Shown here one piece after another: positions 21,477 to 31,387 of a stretch of 34,203 bases of DNA. Location: positions 1 through 34,203 of the forward strand of contig CALWGV010000084.1 in assembly GCA_944380185.1 (NCBI GenBank). The letters are read 5' to 3'. The notes below the pieces were generated by a model. The model saw only the letters and a program-made list of their open reading frames with translations. It made no database searches and was not told the DNA's origin. Numbering within the stretch: position 1 is the first letter of the stretch; the number at the start of each line of letters is the position of its first letter. The DNA is from an uncultured Lachnospiraceae bacterium (lineage in GTDB: Bacteria > Bacillota > Clostridia > Lachnospirales > Lachnospiraceae). A program made the position numbers and the translations under genes.

Positions 21477-22966
<1,490 letters not shown>

Positions 22967-23097: not shown

Positions 23098-24552
<1,455 letters not shown>

Positions 24553-24597: not shown

Positions 24598-25353
24598 TTA
24601 CGGAAGCGCGTACTTTACCTGGAAGCTGTCCTCCGAGTAGCACATGACCTCGATCTCATTGTCATCGGGATCCTGCATGTAGAAATTATAAGTGTTTTCC
24701 GAGTGCTTTACCGGCACATATGGTCCGGTATAGGGGTTGGTGTTGGTCTTGGGTCCGTGCCAGAGCTGGATCCCTTTATTGACCATGTCCTCGGCGAAGG
24801 CCGATATATCCTTTACAATCAAGGCATAATGGCACTGCCCTTTGTTGTTGGTGCAGTTATCTCTGGGGTAAGGATGACGGATCAGCTCGATGGACTGATA
24901 ATCATTGACAAAGATGAGGGCGGAAGTATCGTCTTGCGCGGTGACGTCCAGCTCGAAAATCTTTGTGTAGAAATCCAGGGATTTCTGCAAATCCTTTACG
25001 TGGTATGTAATTTTGGAGATATATTTTTCTTCGTCGCCGACCATCCAGGTATTATACTCCGGATCCTGCATTTTGATACCTTTGCCCTCGCCGAGCGTGG
25101 TATATTGATAGGAATACCACTCGTCGTGATTATGGCCGTCGTAATCGGTCCAGGCAAGTATGCTGCTCTCCGGGAAAATCTCGATGAACTGGCCCCGATG
25201 GAGCTGATAGTAGATGATGTAGTCTTCGCCGGGGACCTTCTGCAGGACAAAGCCCACGTTCAGGCCCAGGGTATTTTCGTACCAGTCTCTGAATCTGGCT
25301 GTGTCTTTGAGCTTGAAGCTGACATGGCCGATTTCCTTGATATTGCTGTTCAT
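24598..25353 (-). CDS. Two-module VOC-superfamily protein (glyoxalase/dioxygenase fold)
   Basis: A 251-residue cytosolic protein made of two VOC modules (about 6-110 and 113-245). Possible metal ligands are His in EIGHVSF and Glu in QFIEIF of the first module. In the second they are His in ITYHVKD and CHYALIV, and Glu in DNEIEVMCY. VOC enzymes are metal-dependent isomerases, lyases, epimerases or dioxygenases; no member with this exact role is recognised. It lies between an RpiR regulator and a GH1 phospho-glycosidase, so a reaction on a sugar or aglycone intermediate is plausible. AAGGAGG precedes the ATG by nine bases on the minus strand, 20 bases after the rpiR stop. Confidence 0.8.
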   Translation of the reverse strand: MNSNIKEIGHVSFKLKDTARFRDWYENTLGLNVGFVLQKVPGEDYIIYYQLHRGQFIEIFPESSILAWTDYDGHNHDEWYSYQYTTLGEGKGIKMQDPEYNTWMVGDEEKYISKITYHVKDLQKSLDFYTKIFELDVTAQDDTSALIFVNDYQSIELIRHPYPRDNCTNNKGQCHYALIVKDISAFAEDMVNKGIQLWHGPKTNTNPYTGPYVPVKHSENTYNFYMQDPDDNEIEVMCYSEDSFQVKYALP

Positions 25354-25373
25354 GCTGTCTGTCCTCCTTTTTT

Positions 25374-26249
25374 TTAAAAACGTGTATCGCTGTGTTCCTC
25401 TATATTTTTCATGCGCATAGTACTGCTCTTGCCAAATTTGCGGACATATACGCAGGAATATAGGACGTTTAACATATATTCAGTTGCTGTCTGAGAGGAG
25501 AAGGTGGCCTGCTTGGACCATTTGTCCTCGGTGACCGGCACTTTAAGGATGATTTTTGCCTGCCTGCCAATCATAGAGTCCGGATTGGAGGTGATGACGA
25601 TCAGCGGAACCCGATGCTTTCGCAGTATCTTCACCTGATCATAGACGGACTTTGAGTTGCCGCTGTAGGATACGATGATGCCGCAGTCGGCTTCTGTCAG
25701 AATGTCGGCCAGGACATCCTGCTCTCCCTGCAGAGAGTTGATCAGGACAAGCTCGTCTATTTTCAGCATATTGGCGCGAAACACCATTCCCTTGATCAGC
25801 GAGTCTCCCATGGCAAACAGAGCAGTTCTGCGGGAGCGGATAATAAGGTCGACGGCCTTGCTCATCTCCCTGTAGTTGTGTGCCAGCAGGGAATAGGAAG
25901 AATTCAGGGTATTGCTCATGATTACAGACATTTTCTGCGCAATATCCAGAACGCTGTCATTGCTCTGAAAAGGGAAATTGTAATTGACATCCCCTCTGTC
26001 TTCGATCTGCCGTTCCAATTCTGCGGCATATCGGATCTTAAAATCCTTGAAGCCCTCCAGCCCTATTTTTCGGCACAGCTGGACGAGAGAAGAGGTGGAG
26101 GTATAGGTTTCTTTACAGATTTCCTGGGCGGACATTCTCAGGATATCCTCTTTCTTGCGGAGAATGTAATTTGCGATTTCAATCTCAGAACTAGAAAATT
26201 TTCCCTGATCGGCCAGTCTTTCTGCTATTTTTACGTTATCGTGCGACAC
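25374..26249 (-). CDS. RpiR-family regulator of the fructose-PTS locus
   Basis: A 291-residue regulator. The N-terminal helix-turn-helix (about 18-75) includes RMSAQEICKETYTSTSSLVQ and IGLEGFKDFKIRY. The SIS domain (about 115-270) includes ALFAMGDS and GIIVSYSGNSKS, the sugar-phosphate binding loops, all better conserved than in the first RpiR. The start is GTG at 26249, eleven bases after AAGGAGG. It is divergent from the PTS operon and probably represses or activates both sides through the shared spacer. It leads the rpiR-VOC-GH1 operon. Confidence 0.9.
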   Translation of the reverse strand: MSHDNVKIAERLADQGKFSSSEIEIANYILRKKEDILRMSAQEICKETYTSTSSLVQLCRKIGLEGFKDFKIRYAAELERQIEDRGDVNYNFPFQSNDSVLDIAQKMSVIMSNTLNSSYSLLAHNYREMSKAVDLIIRSRRTALFAMGDSLIKGMVFRANMLKIDELVLINSLQGEQDVLADILTEADCGIIVSYSGNSKSVYDQVKILRKHRVPLIVITSNPDSMIGRQAKIILKVPVTEDKWSKQATFSSQTATEYMLNVLYSCVYVRKFGKSSTMRMKNIEEHSDTRF

Positions 26250-26284
26250 CAGTATGACATCCTCCTTATAGTGATTTTACACAA

Positions 26285-26313
26285 ATTATTTCATCTGGGA
26301 AGGGGAATGTCAA
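26285..26313 (-). promoter_or_regulatory. Sigma-A promoter for the rpiR-VOC-GH1 operon
   Basis: On the minus strand, consensus TTGACA (plus positions 26308-26313) and AATAAT (26285-26290) are separated by 17 bp, about 36 bases before the GTG start. A small palindrome TTGTAACAA (26317-26325) lies just upstream. Confidence 0.78.
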
Positions 26314-26391
26314 GCATTGTAACAAAATTCAAAAAAATCAGGAATAAAAGTCGGGTATTTTTGAATGTTTTTACAGGGGAAACGAAAGCTA

Positions 26392-26420
26392 TTTACAAAC
26401 AAATGTGCATTGTGTATAGT
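26392..26420 (+). promoter_or_regulatory. Sigma-A promoter for the fructose-PTS operon
   Basis: TTTACA (26392-26397) and TATAGT (26415-26420) are separated by 17 bp, leaving a leader of about 78 nt before the EIIC start. Confidence 0.75.
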
Positions 26421-26504
26421 GAGGGCAGCAAGGCGGTCCATGTCGGGACAGCAAGCAAAAGAGTATTGAAAGGGTATTTTAAGATCAAGAAAGGGGTACT
26501 AAAA

Positions 26505-27620
26505 ATGTCGGACGTAATCGATACTTTAAAAAACGCAAAGAAACATATTCTGGCCGGCGTGTCATATTTGATTCCGGTCGTTGTGGTCGGCGGTATCTGC
26601 TGCGGCATCGGTGTGGCGGTGGGCGGTACTGCTCCGTGGGAGGCTCCCGGTACGCTGGGGTACTTTATGTTTACTCTCGGCAAATACGGTCTGAATCTGA
26701 TGCCGGCCGTCATCGCCGCCTACATAGCCTATTCGATAGCAGATAAGCCGGGCATCGCCCCTGGCCTGATTATCGGCCAGGTGGCCCAGGACAGCGGCGC
26801 AGGTTTCCTGGGGGGAATCCTGGCGGGATTTTTTGTCGGCATTATCGTGCTGCTGATGAAAAAAGTCAAGATCGGGAAGAGCTTTTCCGCCCTCTGGTCG
26901 ATTATCGTGATTCCGACCATAGTTTCCATCGCAGGAGCTTTCCTGATGCAGTATGCGGTGGGGCCTGTCGTGGCTGCCTTTACCAACTGGCTGACCGCTT
27001 TCGCGGAAGGGATGGGCACCGGCAGCATGATTCTTTTGGCCATTGTGATCGGCTTCTTTGGCTCTATTGATCTGGGGCTGTTCGGCAATAAAGCTCTGGG
27101 GGCCGTCCCTCTGGCAATGCTTTCCACTATTGATCCGGCGACAGGCTTGCCGGTAATGATTGCCCAGAGACTCTTATTGATGGTCAGCACGACCTGCGCA
27201 ATTCCGCCTCTGGTCTGCTGTCTGGCCAGGTATCTCAAGCCCTCCGTGTTTACGGATGAAGAAAAGGAGTCGGCTACCGCGGCGGGATTCCTGGGGCTTT
27301 TTGCTATAACAGAGGGAGCTATCCCTCTTGCATTGTCGGATAAAGTTGTGTATGCTGGTTGTATCGTCGGTTCGATTACAGGCGTCATTGCGGTCAGCCT
27401 GACTGGGGCCGGCTCTATCGTCAACTGGGGCGGACTGCCCAACCTGGCCGGCAATACAAATGTTGTGCTCACATTGATCGCCTGGGCTGTAGGTATTGTG
27501 GTCGGAGCAATGTTTATCGTTGCCTTCAAAAAGACCAGAAATGACCAAGGACAGAAGGCGGATCCAAATGCGGAGGCTAAGATTACACAGAAAGGGGACG
27601 AAGTCGATTTGGACTTCTGA
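26505..27620 (+). CDS. PTS fructose-family EIIC permease
   Basis: A 371-residue membrane protein of the Fru family, with about nine to ten helices. It begins MSDVIDTLKNAKKHILAGVSYLIP..., the typical start of free-standing EIIC proteins in this family. Conserved segments FGSIDLGLFGNKAL and LFAITEGAIPLAL are present; the latter is the family's ITEGAIPF-like substrate motif. The start at 26505 follows AAGGGG by eight bases and the promoter by about 80; upstream in-frame codons reach into the promoter region and are not coding. It is the first gene of a five-gene operon with separate EIIA and EIIB genes. Confidence 0.92.
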   Translation: MSDVIDTLKNAKKHILAGVSYLIPVVVVGGICCGIGVAVGGTAPWEAPGTLGYFMFTLGKYGLNLMPAVIAAYIAYSIADKPGIAPGLIIGQVAQDSGAGFLGGILAGFFVGIIVLLMKKVKIGKSFSALWSIIVIPTIVSIAGAFLMQYAVGPVVAAFTNWLTAFAEGMGTGSMILLAIVIGFFGSIDLGLFGNKALGAVPLAMLSTIDPATGLPVMIAQRLLLMVSTTCAIPPLVCCLARYLKPSVFTDEEKESATAAGFLGLFAITEGAIPLALSDKVVYAGCIVGSITGVIAVSLTGAGSIVNWGGLPNLAGNTNVVLTLIAWAVGIVVGAMFIVAFKKTRNDQGQKADPNAEAKITQKGDEVDLDF

Positions 27621-27629
27621 TGGGAGCCT

Positions 27630-28079
27630 ATGTTGATCTCAAAGGACATGATTTGCATCGGTGCGGATCTCAAAAATAAGACAGAGATCATTCGGATGGT
27701 TGGAGAATTGATGGACCGGGCGGGTAAGCTTGCCGATAAGGAAGGCTACATACAGGATGTTTTTGCCCGGGAAGAGGAGATATCCACCAATCTGGGGGAT
27801 CACATCGCAATGCCCCATGCCCGCACGCCTCATGTCAAAGAGGCCGGCCTGGTTTTTATCCGGCTGAAAGACGAAGTGATGTGGGAGGGGGACAGCTCCC
27901 CGGTCAGCCTTATTTTCGGTATTGCCGCACCGGAGTCCGGAGGAAATATTCATCTGAAGATTCTGGCCACTCTCGCCAGAAAGCTGATTTACGATGAGTT
28001 TAAGCAAAAACTTTTCCGGGCGGAAAGCAAGGAGGAACTATTGACTATTCTCGAGGAAGCGACAGGAGGTTTGGAATGA
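27630..28079 (+). CDS. PTS fructose-family EIIA
   Basis: A 149-residue phosphocarrier of the mannitol/fructose EIIA fold. The phosphorylated His63 is in IAMPHARTPHV. It accepts phosphate from HPr and passes it to the EIIB encoded next. GGGAG precedes the ATG closely, nine bases after the EIIC stop. Its stop overlaps the EIIB start (ATGA). Length is normal for a stand-alone EIIA. Confidence 0.95.
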   Translation: MLISKDMICIGADLKNKTEIIRMVGELMDRAGKLADKEGYIQDVFAREEEISTNLGDHIAMPHARTPHVKEAGLVFIRLKDEVMWEGDSSPVSLIFGIAAPESGGNIHLKILATLARKLIYDEFKQKLFRAESKEELLTILEEATGGLE

Positions 28080-28384
28080 AGCTAGTGGCGGTTACGGCAT
28101 GTGCGGCGGGCGTCGCTCATACATTCATGGCGGCTGAGGCCATTGAAAATGCGGCGAAGGCCAGGGGGCATGAGATAAAGGTGGAGACACAGGGAGCGCT
28201 GGGGATCGAAAACCGGATCACAGAAGAAGATATGAAGGGGGTTGCTGCAGCCATCCTTACGAAAGACATTCCCATCCGGGAGAGAGAAAGATTTCAGGGA
28301 GTAAAGATTTTCAACGTGACATCTACAGCCTGTATTACCAACGGGCCCAAGATTATCGAGGCTGTTGAACAGCAGTGTCAATGA
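28076..28384 (+). CDS. PTS fructose-family EIIB
   Basis: A 102-residue phosphocarrier. Cys9 in VTACAAGVAHTFMAAE is the phosphorylation site; most relatives have TACPTGIAHT, so Pro-Thr is replaced by Ala-Ala. Later parts (EIKVETQGALGIEN) match the family. Its ATG overlaps the EIIA stop by four bases. With EIIC and EIIA it makes a complete permease that phosphorylates its sugar during entry. Confidence 0.95.
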   Translation: MKLVAVTACAAGVAHTFMAAEAIENAAKARGHEIKVETQGALGIENRITEEDMKGVAAAILTKDIPIRERERFQGVKIFNVTSTACITNGPKIIEAVEQQCQ

Positions 28385-28413
28385 TAATAGAATGATACCA
28401 GGAGATGGATGAA

Positions 28414-29418
28414 ATGAAAATAGGAATATTCGGATCGGGAATGATCGTGTCGACGGCGCTCGCGGCCATAAGCGGCATGGAAGACGTCAGCTGTGAAGCA
28501 ATCTGGTGCCGCGAGAGCGGCAGAGCTAATGCGCAGCGGCTTAAGGAGGAGTATCAGATTCCCAGAATATATACAGACACCGAGGCATTCCTCCGGGATG
28601 ACAGCTTTGACACGGTCTATGTGGGCCTGGTCAACAGCGCCCACTATGAGTATACGCGCAGAGCCCTGGAAGCGGGAAAGAACGTCATCTGCGAAAAGCC
28701 CTTTACCGCTACGGGGAGACAGGCCAGGAAGCTGATCGCGATTGCTAAGGCGAAAGGGCTCTTCCTGTTTGAGGCGATAATGACCCGCTATATCGATAAT
28801 TACGATGAGATAGGAAGACAGCTGGATAAGATCGGCAAGGTCACCCTGATACAGACCAATTATTCCCAGTATTCCAGGCGCTTCGGGCGGTATCTGGAGG
28901 GACAGGTGCTGCCGGCCTTCGACCCGGCCTTGGCGGGGGGAAGTCTGTATGACATCAATCTCTACTGCATCCAGTTTATCATGGGCCTGTTTGGCAAACC
29001 GCAGGGTGTCAGATACATGGCCAATATAGGCTACAACGGGATCGACACTTCCGGCGTTCTCTGCATGGATTACGGCGATTTCAAGGCGGTGGCGGTGGGA
29101 GCCAAGGATTCGGATTCTCCTGCCCGCAGCGTGATCCAGGGGCAGAAAGGGTATATTGAGGTGCAGAACCGGTCTCCCATAGTGGAGAATGTCATGCTGC
29201 ACTTGAAGGGCGAAGAGCCGGTCTGTATCGATGTGAAACCGGTGGGAAATGCCATGGCTAATGAATTCCGAAAAATAGCCGAGATCATGCAGAACGGAGA
29301 CTACGAGCTCTGCTACACTTACATGCAGAAGACGCAGGATGTGATGGATGTGATGGAGGCGGCCAGGAAGGATGCCGGCATTCACTTTGACGCCGATGAC
29401 GAGGACGACGATGAGTGA
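28414..29418 (+). CDS. Gfo/Idh/MocA-family oxidoreductase
   Basis: A 334-residue NAD(P)-dependent sugar or polyol dehydrogenase. The N-terminal Rossmann start is MKIGIFGSGMI, and the family motif CEKPF (Glu94, Lys95, Pro96; Lys is catalytic) is present. The C-terminal alpha/beta domain holds GGSLYDINLYCIQ, where many relatives have DxGxHxxD, so the usual His is Tyr here, as in several xylose- or dihydrodiol-dehydrogenase-like members. The start at 28414 has AGGAG ten bases upstream; an ATG at 28405 would touch the RBS. The stop overlaps the lactonase start by eight bases. It probably oxidises the PTS-imported sugar phosphate or a product. Confidence 0.92.
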   Translation: MKIGIFGSGMIVSTALAAISGMEDVSCEAIWCRESGRANAQRLKEEYQIPRIYTDTEAFLRDDSFDTVYVGLVNSAHYEYTRRALEAGKNVICEKPFTATGRQARKLIAIAKAKGLFLFEAIMTRYIDNYDEIGRQLDKIGKVTLIQTNYSQYSRRFGRYLEGQVLPAFDPALAGGSLYDINLYCIQFIMGLFGKPQGVRYMANIGYNGIDTSGVLCMDYGDFKAVAVGAKDSDSPARSVIQGQKGYIEVQNRSPIVENVMLHLKGEEPVCIDVKPVGNAMANEFRKIAEIMQNGDYELCYTYMQKTQDVMDVMEAARKDAGIHFDADDEDDDE

Positions 29419-30361
29419 TAGTGTAATAGTAACCGCCTATGGAAGCGGTGCGGCGGACAGAGGAATCAAGATTTTAGGAGACGGGAAAGAGTGGTGCGGC
29501 CCGCAGTTTCTGCCTGTCGACGGCAAATGCAACTTCTGTATACGAGTGAGAGACCGCCTGTATACGCCTGTGCAGAAAGAGCAGTCCTGCTGTATGCAGG
29601 AGTACCGGCTTGATGAAAAGGGAAGGTATGCGCTGGCGGGCAGCTATCCGACGCAGTATTTTTACTCCTACGGCGCTGTCTATGGGAACTTTCTGCTGCT
29701 GGCCAGTTTTTCGGACGGAGTGGACGCAATCTATGACATGGAGCAGCACAGGGAGATTGATTTCTGTATACATCAGCGAGCAGGGTATGAGCAGAGCGGG
29801 CGCTCCCACTATATCGGAATCACGCCGGACCGGCGCCATGCCTTTGCCGTCGACAACGGGCTCCAGCAGATTTACCTGTATGATATAGTTGACGGACGGT
29901 TTGCGGTGCGCGGCGTAAGAGAATTCTGCGAGGAAAATATCCGCCTGATGTCCTACTCGCCTTTTTCCGGCTGCTATTATCTTAACACGGAGAAAACCAA
30001 CAGAGTCTATGTGCTGGACTATGTGGAGGAGCAGTTTCATATCCGGGGCATCACCGATCTGTCCTGTGAAGAAAAATCTTTCTCCGGCGGCAATGCCGTG
30101 TCTCCGGACGGGCAGAGACTGTGCATATCTGTGCGGGGGGACGATCATCTGCATTATTTCAAGATCAGGCAGGACGGCGAATTGGAGCTGTTGGATAAAA
30201 TTCACTGCGGAAAAATGCCCAGGGATGTGATTTTTGAAAAAGACGGTTTGTATGTGACCTGCACCAATGATAATGTCATCGAAAAGTACCGGATAAAAGA
30301 CAGCTGGCTGGAAAAAAACGGAGAGATATCCGTCTGCCGGCCGATCACATTCGGACTGTAG
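29411..30361 (+). CDS. Seven-bladed beta-propeller lactonase-family protein (YbhE/Pgl-like)
   Basis: A 316-residue cytosolic protein. Segments such as SHYIGITPDRRHAFAVDNG and GGNAVSPDGQRLCISVRGDD are blade repeats of the lactonase (YbhE/Pgl) family, and GKMPRDVIFEKDGLYVTC resembles its closing blades. Members hydrolyse sugar-acid lactones such as 6-phosphogluconolactone. It is translationally coupled (8-bp overlap) to the Gfo/Idh dehydrogenase, so a dehydrogenase-then-lactonase step is likely. It is a little shorter than typical (about 340-350). It is the last gene before a strong terminator. Confidence 0.82.
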   Translation: MSDSVIVTAYGSGAADRGIKILGDGKEWCGPQFLPVDGKCNFCIRVRDRLYTPVQKEQSCCMQEYRLDEKGRYALAGSYPTQYFYSYGAVYGNFLLLASFSDGVDAIYDMEQHREIDFCIHQRAGYEQSGRSHYIGITPDRRHAFAVDNGLQQIYLYDIVDGRFAVRGVREFCEENIRLMSYSPFSGCYYLNTEKTNRVYVLDYVEEQFHIRGITDLSCEEKSFSGGNAVSPDGQRLCISVRGDDHLHYFKIRQDGELELLDKIHCGKMPRDVIFEKDGLYVTCTNDNVIEKYRIKDSWLEKNGEISVCRPITFGL

Positions 30362-30413: not shown

Positions 30414-30460
30414 AGCTGCCGCATCAAGGATTAGCAAATCGTAGATGCGGCAGCTTTTTT
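30414..30460 (+). terminator. Intrinsic terminator closing the fructose-PTS operon
   Basis: GCTGCCGCATC (30415-30425) and GATGCGGCAGC (30444-30454) form a perfect 11-bp stem followed by six T (30455-30460). Confidence 0.95.
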
Positions 30461-30502: not shown

Positions 30503-31387
30503 TCAGCGGGCGAAGATTCGATGAATAAACCGATAGGTCCCTTCGATTTGATCAGCCCTTACGATATGAGCCAGCCCATGGCCGGTTCCGGGCAGAATCT
30601 CCAATGTGACGTCATCCTTTGCTGCCTTCAGAGCGTAATAATACGACTGAGAGAAGGCCAGCGCCATGGTGTCGTCGTCCTCGCCGTGAAGAATATAGAA
30701 GGGCGGCTCGGTTCCGTCGATATCCGCCAGGGGATGGGGGGAACTGCGGAGGATCTCAGCCAGCTCTTCTCCCTTTGCGCGGAACTGGATTTCTTCCAGA
30801 TACTGAGGATTTTCTTTGCCTTTATTGACGATTTTCTCCAGATTATAGTGCTCTTCCAGGCTGGTCATGGCCCAGTAATCAACTACGCCTGCCACGCGGC
30901 AATCGTACTGGCTGTAAGCGGCAAAAGGGTCACTGACCGAACCTTTTGTGCCGCCGATGCCGATCTGGCAGGCGAGAAAGGCTCCGTGTGTCTCACCCCA
31001 GACGATGAATTTGTCCGGATTCAGATCATACTCGGAAGCTATGGATTTTAAGAAGCGGATAGCTGTCGCGGCATCGTGCAGCATGGCCGGATACGCGGCC
31101 TCATCAGCCAGCCGGTAGTTGACGGCCGCCACGGCATATCCGTATCGAAGTCCCTGCAGCATAGCCATAATGTGTCTGGTTTTGTCCCCCCGCACAAACC
31201 CGCCTCCGTGAATGTAGACGATCACGGGGTGGGGACCCTGACCTGCCTGCGGGATATACAGGTCCACTGCCTGCTTTTCCGACTCGTCTGCGTATTTTAG
31301 ATTTTTATATACTTTTGCCGTGCCGTCCAGAACATATTCCTTTATATAGGTGCTGTCATCTTTAACCGGATACGAAATCCATTCCAT
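30503..31387 (-). CDS. Alpha/beta hydrolase (esterase-like), nucleophile Ser replaced by Thr
   Basis: A 294-residue cytosolic alpha/beta hydrolase of the HGGG (hormone-sensitive lipase/acetyl-esterase-like) group. The oxyanion motif HGGG is at 60-63. The nucleophile elbow reads GETHG (131-135) where GESAG is expected, so Thr133 (codon ACA) replaces the Ser. Asp238 in HGEDDDT and His270 in GTGHG complete a triad-like set. Activity is therefore uncertain: it may be a weak esterase, a changed enzyme or a binding protein. AGGAGGT is seven bases before the ATG on the minus strand. It converges on the lactonase gene, and could deacylate a glycoside substrate of that locus, though nothing proves a link. 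Confidence 0.85.
   Translation of the reverse strand: MEWISYPVKDDSTYIKEYVLDGTAKVYKNLKYADESEKQAVDLYIPQAGQGPHPVIVYIHGGGFVRGDKTRHIMAMLQGLRYGYAVAAVNYRLADEAAYPAMLHDAATAIRFLKSIASEYDLNPDKFIVWGETHGAFLACQIGIGGTKGSVSDPFAAYSQYDCRVAGVVDYWAMTSLEEHYNLEKIVNKGKENPQYLEEIQFRAKGEELAEILRSSPHPLADIDGTEPPFYILHGEDDDTMALAFSQSYYYALKAAKDDVTLEILPGTGHGLAHIVRADQIEGTYRFIHRIFAR

Follow-up and report, generated by a model that had tools for sequence, protein, structure and literature searches.

The locus described here raised the question of which pathway would bring together a fructose-family phosphotransferase system (PTS), a Gfo/Idh/MocA dehydrogenase (Gfo), a lactonase-like beta-propeller and a vicinal-oxygen-chelate (VOC) protein around one divergent control region. 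It lies on a 34,203-bp stretch of DNA from an uncultured Lachnospiraceae bacterium, referred to below as the window, which is the whole of contig C84 in a 112-contig, 2.9-Mb assembly that is 84% complete. The locus was best explained, with a rough probability of 50%, as a catabolic cassette, retained sporadically and possibly mobile, that serves one particular sugar compound. Sequence comparison indicated that the cassette is a genuine, rare unit common to the window genome and to Erysipelotrichaceae, another family. Within it, the PTS, a divergent RpiR regulator and a group formed by Gfo, the propeller and an esterase-like protein with a threonine at the nucleophile position occur together, usually with the VOC protein.

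The arrangement was found again in other genomes and is thus more than a chance neighbourhood. A search with the membrane permease EIIC as the only seed gave three loci, all in Erysipelotrichaceae: L097 in isolate RGIG7102, L098 in Breznakia pachnodae and L099 in Solobacterium sp. RGIG4473. Because EIIC alone chose these loci, their neighbouring genes are independent evidence. In L099, VOC-RpiR was divergent from EIIC-EIIA-EIIB-Gfo-lactonase-esterase, and a further Gfo gene followed VOC. In L097, VOC-RpiR was divergent from EIIC-EIIA-EIIB-lactonase-esterase-Gfo. In L098, RpiR without VOC was divergent from EIIC-EIIA-EIIB-Gfo-epimerase-esterase-lactonase, where the epimerase was so called by eye because it resembles the PF01370-matching one of a second Breznakia locus (L121). 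The co-conservation check proposed with the initial annotation therefore gave RpiR, EIIA, EIIB, Gfo and lactonase in all three loci and VOC in two of the three. With the esterase counted and the glycoside hydrolase GH1 left aside, L097 and L099 contained all eight cassette genes and L098 seven of the eight. The identities to the window copies in L097, L098 and L099 were 68, 70 and 82% for EIIC and 54, 41 and 54% for RpiR, respectively, and ranged over the three loci from 75 to 81% for EIIB, 56 to 65% for EIIA, 44 to 47% for Gfo, 32 to 54% for the lactonase and 37 to 53% for the esterase. The VOC protein was 72–73% identical to the L097 and L099 copies.

The distribution of the cassette was narrow. 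At E ≤ 1e-40, the lactonase profile matched 7 of 315 genomes from the order that includes Breznakia, and four of these (G601, G602, G603 and G688) had the cassette or, in G688, its end. The G688 locus (L117) was found through the lactonase and consisted of Gfo-lactonase-esterase, in that order, on a 5.6-kb contig ending inside Gfo. The second Breznakia locus, L121 (G602:C3:538500-551755), combined a lactose/cellobiose-type-looking PTS (EIIC by PF02378, EIIA and EIIB by eye) with a cassette-type Gfo that was 51% identical to the window Gfo, the epimerase, a propeller, two cupins, a second Gfo and an aldo-keto reductase. It was the propeller that led to both L117 and L121, so only Gfo is independent evidence in these two. 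VOC was detected in 2 of 309 genomes of this order, both times inside the cassette (G688 possibly lies outside the 309). Among 200 genomes of the window's family, VOC was found in the window's own genome only, the lactonase in four at E ≤ 1e-10 (its own and three partial matches at 31–33%) and EIIC in 11 at E ≤ 1e-30 (its own and ten at 32–38%). A phylum sample of 398 genomes gave a single lactonase match at E ≤ 1e-15, the window's own. Relatives of Gfo were present in 66 of the 200 family genomes at E ≤ 1e-30; the two closest from other genomes were 48% and 43% identical, and their neighbouring genes looked unrelated by eye. The window genome is probably of another order than Breznakia, because it was not among the matches from that order even though its own lactonase was in the query.

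VOC had no match in viral contigs or plasmids. The lactonase seed matched three stretches among genome contigs, none of them a relative in a search that reaches close relatives only, and eight plasmid records at 23–32% identity, none covering 80% of the query. The guanine-plus-cytosine (GC) content of the cassette was 0.51, compared with 0.55 for window bases 1–21400. The GC content at third codon positions of the cassette genes (0.56–0.70) overlapped that of their neighbours (0.46–0.76), so composition does not decide whether the cassette was recently transferred into the window lineage.

The eight genes named in the initial annotation were all present and open, and each scored above a curated family cut-off in at least one library. 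Open reading frames and family matches confirmed the placement of rpiR, VOC and GH1 on the minus strand and of EIIC, EIIA, EIIB, Gfo and lactonase on the plus strand. The range given for the locus, 24598–30361, omitted GH1, which was named in its text, and ended before the esterase gene, a convergent partner that had been missed and that was present in all three loci found through EIIC. The spacing of the cassette genes is operon-like: VOC and RpiR are 20 bp apart, EIIC and EIIA 9 bp, and EIIB and Gfo 20 bp, EIIA and EIIB overlap by 4 bp, and Gfo and lactonase by 8 bp. The last overlap had been read as strengthening a link between consecutive steps. The overlap itself is real: Gfo closes with a TGA ending at 29418, the lactonase ATG is at 29411, and this start is consistent with the alignment to relatives. 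It is not conserved, however: the two genes are 26 bp apart in L099 and the order in L097 is lactonase-esterase-Gfo. The coordinates of all features are collected in the table.

Table. Features of the cassette and its GH1 neighbour in the window.
Feature	Position	Strand	Basis
GH1 6-phospho-beta-glucosidase	23098..24537	-	NF007154 625.8 bits (cut-off 624)
VOC, tandem vicinal-oxygen-chelate protein, 251 aa	24598..25353	-	PF00903 48.6 bits
RpiR, MurR/RpiR-type regulator, HTH_6 + SIS	25374..26249	-	PF01418 and PF01380 above cut-off
Divergent control region between RpiR and EIIC	26250..26504		intergenic
EIIC, fructose-family PTS membrane permease	26505..27620	+	TIGR01427 176.5 bits (cut-off 157.55)
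EIIA, fructose family	27630..28079	+	PF00359; TIGR00848 105.6 bits (cut-off 103.5)
EIIB, fructose family, 4-bp overlap with EIIA	28076..28384	+	PF02302; TIGR00829 98.6 bits (cut-off 76.85)
Gfo/Idh/MocA dehydrogenase	28405..29418	+	PF01408 76.7 bits; EKP (K98-P99), D183-x3-Y187
Lactonase-like beta-propeller	29411..30361	+	PF10282 82.4 bits (gathering cut-off 21.7)
Hairpin with T run, probable terminator between convergent lactonase and esterase	~30414..30460		folding energy
Esterase-like alpha/beta hydrolase, BD-FAE family	30503..31387	-	PF20434 136.1 bits (cut-off 26.8)

Membership of the Gfo/Idh/MocA family was indicated by the Rossmann domain score together with the EKP and D-x3-Y residues, which we take to be the catalytic motif of this family. 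Residues Lys98, Pro99, Asp183 and Tyr187 were invariant in all four aligned copies. In a tree of 38 rows, of which six were labelled cassette-type in this analysis and the remaining 32 had been taken as best hits, chiefly in the family of the window, a sampling that is not neutral, the cassette-type proteins (window, L097, L098, L099, L117 in part, and L121) lay on one side of a branch with support of 100/93. Gfo shared its locus with a propeller in all six members of this clade. Among the relatives of Gfo with known structures are glucose-fructose and aldose-aldose oxidoreductases and a dimeric dihydrodiol dehydrogenase.

Residues His133, Arg178, Arg242 and Arg271 of the propeller were invariant in all ten aligned propellers and Glu194 was kept in nine of the ten; these five are presumably the catalytic positions of the fold. 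The protein scored well below the cut-offs for propeller-type 6-phosphogluconolactonase (NF008258, 25.2 bits with a cut-off of 370; NF050136, 59.7 bits with a cut-off of 500). In the VOC protein, residues His118, Glu156, His175 and Glu235 of the C-terminal domain were invariant in the three copies (window, L097 and L099), in an order that we take to match the four metal ligands of glyoxalase I. The AlphaFold model of VOC was poor, with a predicted local distance difference test (pLDDT) score of 51, and its nearest folds, two-domain glyoxalases such as GLOD4, were matched at low confidence and carry little weight.

The esterase scored as a member of the BD-FAE family and lacked the catalytic serine in GxSxG of BD-FAE and HSL-type esterases. 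Its nucleophile elbow reads GETHG, with Thr133 where serine is usual, and this was so in all five cassette copies (the four aligned and L117). The HGGG motif and residues Asp238 and His270 were kept in the four aligned copies. Among 160 family genomes, the nearest relatives outside the cassette were found in two at E ≤ 1e-40 and had serine (GGSAG and GESAG), as did, at the position of Thr133, the two solved relatives for which alignments were shown. The model had a pLDDT of 78, and its nearest folds were a rumen lipase and gut carbohydrate esterases.

The EIIC, EIIA and EIIB proteins belong to the fructose family by curated TIGR scores; for EIIC, Pfam gave nothing at E ≤ 0.001. The Pfam scan, which covered ten window proteins, showed no 1-phosphofructokinase. 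A PTS of this kind usually imports and phosphorylates its substrate and an RpiR regulator usually senses the product. The PTS would thus import and phosphorylate the compound, and the SIS domain of RpiR would sense the resulting sugar phosphate. Gfo would oxidise a hydroxyl group with NAD(P), most likely at C1 to give a lactone, and the propeller would hydrolyse this lactone to an aldonate phosphate. The esterase-like protein may act on an acyl or related group, and VOC, through a putative glyoxalase-I-like metal site, may enolise, epimerise or cleave a keto intermediate. Gfo and propeller occur together in six loci, with PTSs of two types, a pattern that is best explained by the formation of a lactone and its subsequent opening, and the retention of the presumed catalytic residues in Gfo, propeller and VOC was also counted in favour. 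Oxidation with lactone opening, as the initial annotation had suggested, is plausible. Tentatively, the cassette would encode an undescribed PTS-dependent pathway that degrades an acylated or lactone-forming sugar and combines a threonine-nucleophile (or non-hydrolytic) hydrolase with Gfo, a propeller lactonase and a two-domain VOC protein.

Several observations weighed against the reading of the locus as a single lactone-forming cassette. The solved relatives of Gfo also include sugar 3-ketoreductase, inositol dehydrogenases and 1,5-anhydrofructose reductase, so oxidation at C1 is not singled out. The exception at Glu194 is the propeller of L098, the most divergent cassette copy (32%), which has glutamine there. 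No 6-phosphogluconate dehydrogenase (PF00393) was detected at E ≤ 1e-5 in the 84%-complete assembly of the window, and the ordinary outlet for 6-phosphogluconate is doubtful for this reason; the same search found PF00393 in 9 of 14 known genomes. VOC had no match in the Breznakia genome searched (G602) and is therefore not essential everywhere. Propellers of the same subfamily in the other three matched genomes of the Breznakia order, G848–G850 (L118–L120), had no PTS or other cassette match in the 14–17.6 kb read around them. The comparison of intergenic regions gave short common words and no convincing shared operator. In the window, the esterase gene lies on the opposite strand behind the terminator-like hairpin (−29.4 kcal/mol, with a mean of −12.1 for shuffled sequences; z = −7.46), which places it outside the lactonase transcript, and its threonine could mean that the protein has lost hydrolysis.

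The main rival, which appears unlikely, is a keto-sugar route, in which Gfo would oxidise a phospho-glycoside at a ring hydroxyl away from C1, for instance at C3, the metal site of VOC would take the neighbouring proton, so that the glycosidic bond is cleaved in an elimination or the epimer is changed, and the propeller and esterase would act later. It gains from VOC being among the best conserved cassette proteins and having all four positions of what is presumably a glyoxalase-type ligand set, from the 3-ketoreductase among the Gfo relatives, and from weak matches to glycoside 3-dehydrogenase models, which were far below the cut-offs. Extra redox genes also fit, namely the second Gfo beside VOC in L099 and the second Gfo, aldo-keto reductase and two cupins in L121. 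However, Breznakia lacks VOC and yet retains Gfo, propeller and esterase, and the constant partner of Gfo is the propeller rather than VOC. In one account of 3-ketoglycoside routes (PMC9007349), LacABC is a lactose 3-dehydrogenase and DUF1080 a putative periplasmic hydrolase; those pathways, as outlined there, start like the cassette with a sugar dehydrogenase, which opens the way to bond cleavage, but use DUF1080, and no DUF1080 (PF06439) hydrolase was seen among the ten window proteins scanned, the rest of the genome not having been searched for it.

The scheme of the initial annotation was quite unlikely. There, the PTS would import a beta-glycoside, GH1 would split the phospho-glycoside, and Gfo and the lactonase would oxidise the freed sugar phosphate. 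In its favour, GH1 shares the strand of VOC, starts 60 bp beyond its downstream end and has the score of a 6-phospho-beta-glucosidase, a GH1 gene in L097, ~4 kb from VOC, stands directly before a second lactonase, and L121 pairs Gfo and lactonase with its lactose/cellobiose-type-looking PTS. On the other hand, no GH1 was present in the L098 and L099 stretches, which extended ~10 kb to each side of EIIC. The two nearest relatives of GH1 in the genus (78% and 77% amino acid identity) had no cassette set around them; the only cassette-like match near them was a short, weak RpiR match (31% over 55 residues), and one of the two adjoins a PTS that looked cellobiose-type by eye. All seven genomes of the genus, the window's own included, gave DNA matches to a 10-kb stretch, and among the matches listed from the others only the GH1 gene and the adjoining GH1 fragment matched. 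GH1-like DNA was present on at least 14 other contigs of the window genome, so that GH1 adjacency is cheap. GH1 is thus a neighbour and not part of the conserved set as had been claimed; it was possibly recruited, and may feed the same pool.

An aromatic route, in which a dihydrodiol dehydrogenase-like Gfo would yield a catechol for a VOC extradiol dioxygenase and a propeller of the muconate-lactonising type, was extremely unlikely: the VOC and PF10282 families both include enzymes of such routes and Gfo has dimeric dihydrodiol dehydrogenase among its best structurally solved relatives, but the route needs oxygen and the carriers are probably gut anaerobes, the PTS does not fit, and the VOC ligands look like what we take to be the four-residue glyoxalase type. 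The extradiol dioxygenase reading of VOC was rejected on the oxygen requirement and the PTS context.

The cassette was compared with known systems and is a PTS catabolic operon of a known kind with an unusual esterase. The window EIIC and EIIB scored best against an FrwC-type model and a fructose-like IIB model, respectively, and were below the equivalog cut-offs (212 against 426 and 114 against 135 bits). The cassette differs from Frw/Fry-type fructose PTS operons in carrying Gfo, propeller, VOC and the threonine esterase; the substrates of those operons are, to our knowledge, not known. MngA, the PTS for 2-O-alpha-mannosyl-D-glycerate, is a fructose-family PTS that imports a glycoside. The window EIIA, EIIB and EIIC each matched a part of its model, as separate subunits and each far below the cut-off, and no mannosidase was among the ten window proteins scanned. 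The L-ascorbate PTS with the lactonase UlaG follows a like logic, import and then lactone opening, but has another permease family and another lactonase fold and is not known to use a dehydrogenase before the lactonase. The BD-FAE acetyl and feruloyl esterases share family and fold with the cassette esterase and have a nucleophile serine in place of its threonine. No description of the gene set or its chemistry was found in literature searches, which is weak evidence of absence.

What had been a single-genome oddity is now a gene set that is defined and open to testing, and one carrier is a named strain, Breznakia pachnodae DSM 16784, which is without VOC. With the substrate identified, gut bacteria would be credited with one more route of sugar degradation. 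The change from serine to threonine in every cassette copy seen raises the question of whether this fold can work with a threonine nucleophile or whether a new reaction is involved.

Beside the cassette, three PTS-plus-GH1 neighbourhoods were seen in the 34-kb contig (10592–13338, 15973–18937 and 21477–24537), and together with the GH1-like DNA on other contigs they represent a marked expansion of beta-glucoside use. At 21477–22966, a beta-glucoside EIIBC gene ends partway through EIIC, and the C-terminal portion of a GH1 gene comes immediately after it; this looks like a deletion remnant within a bgl operon. The propellers of L118–L120 adjoin a lipase-like and beta-lactamase-like gene by eye. 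Another fructose-type PTS cluster, L054 (G111:C44:29000-41834), contained a Gfo (30%), a glycyl-radical-enzyme-like protein with its activase, an epimerase and transaldolase-like genes, all named by eye, and its EIIC was broken by a stop. Near the start of the window, at 1095–2867, lies a secreted-looking protein that by eye resembles an FMN-binding, FAD-dependent reductase.

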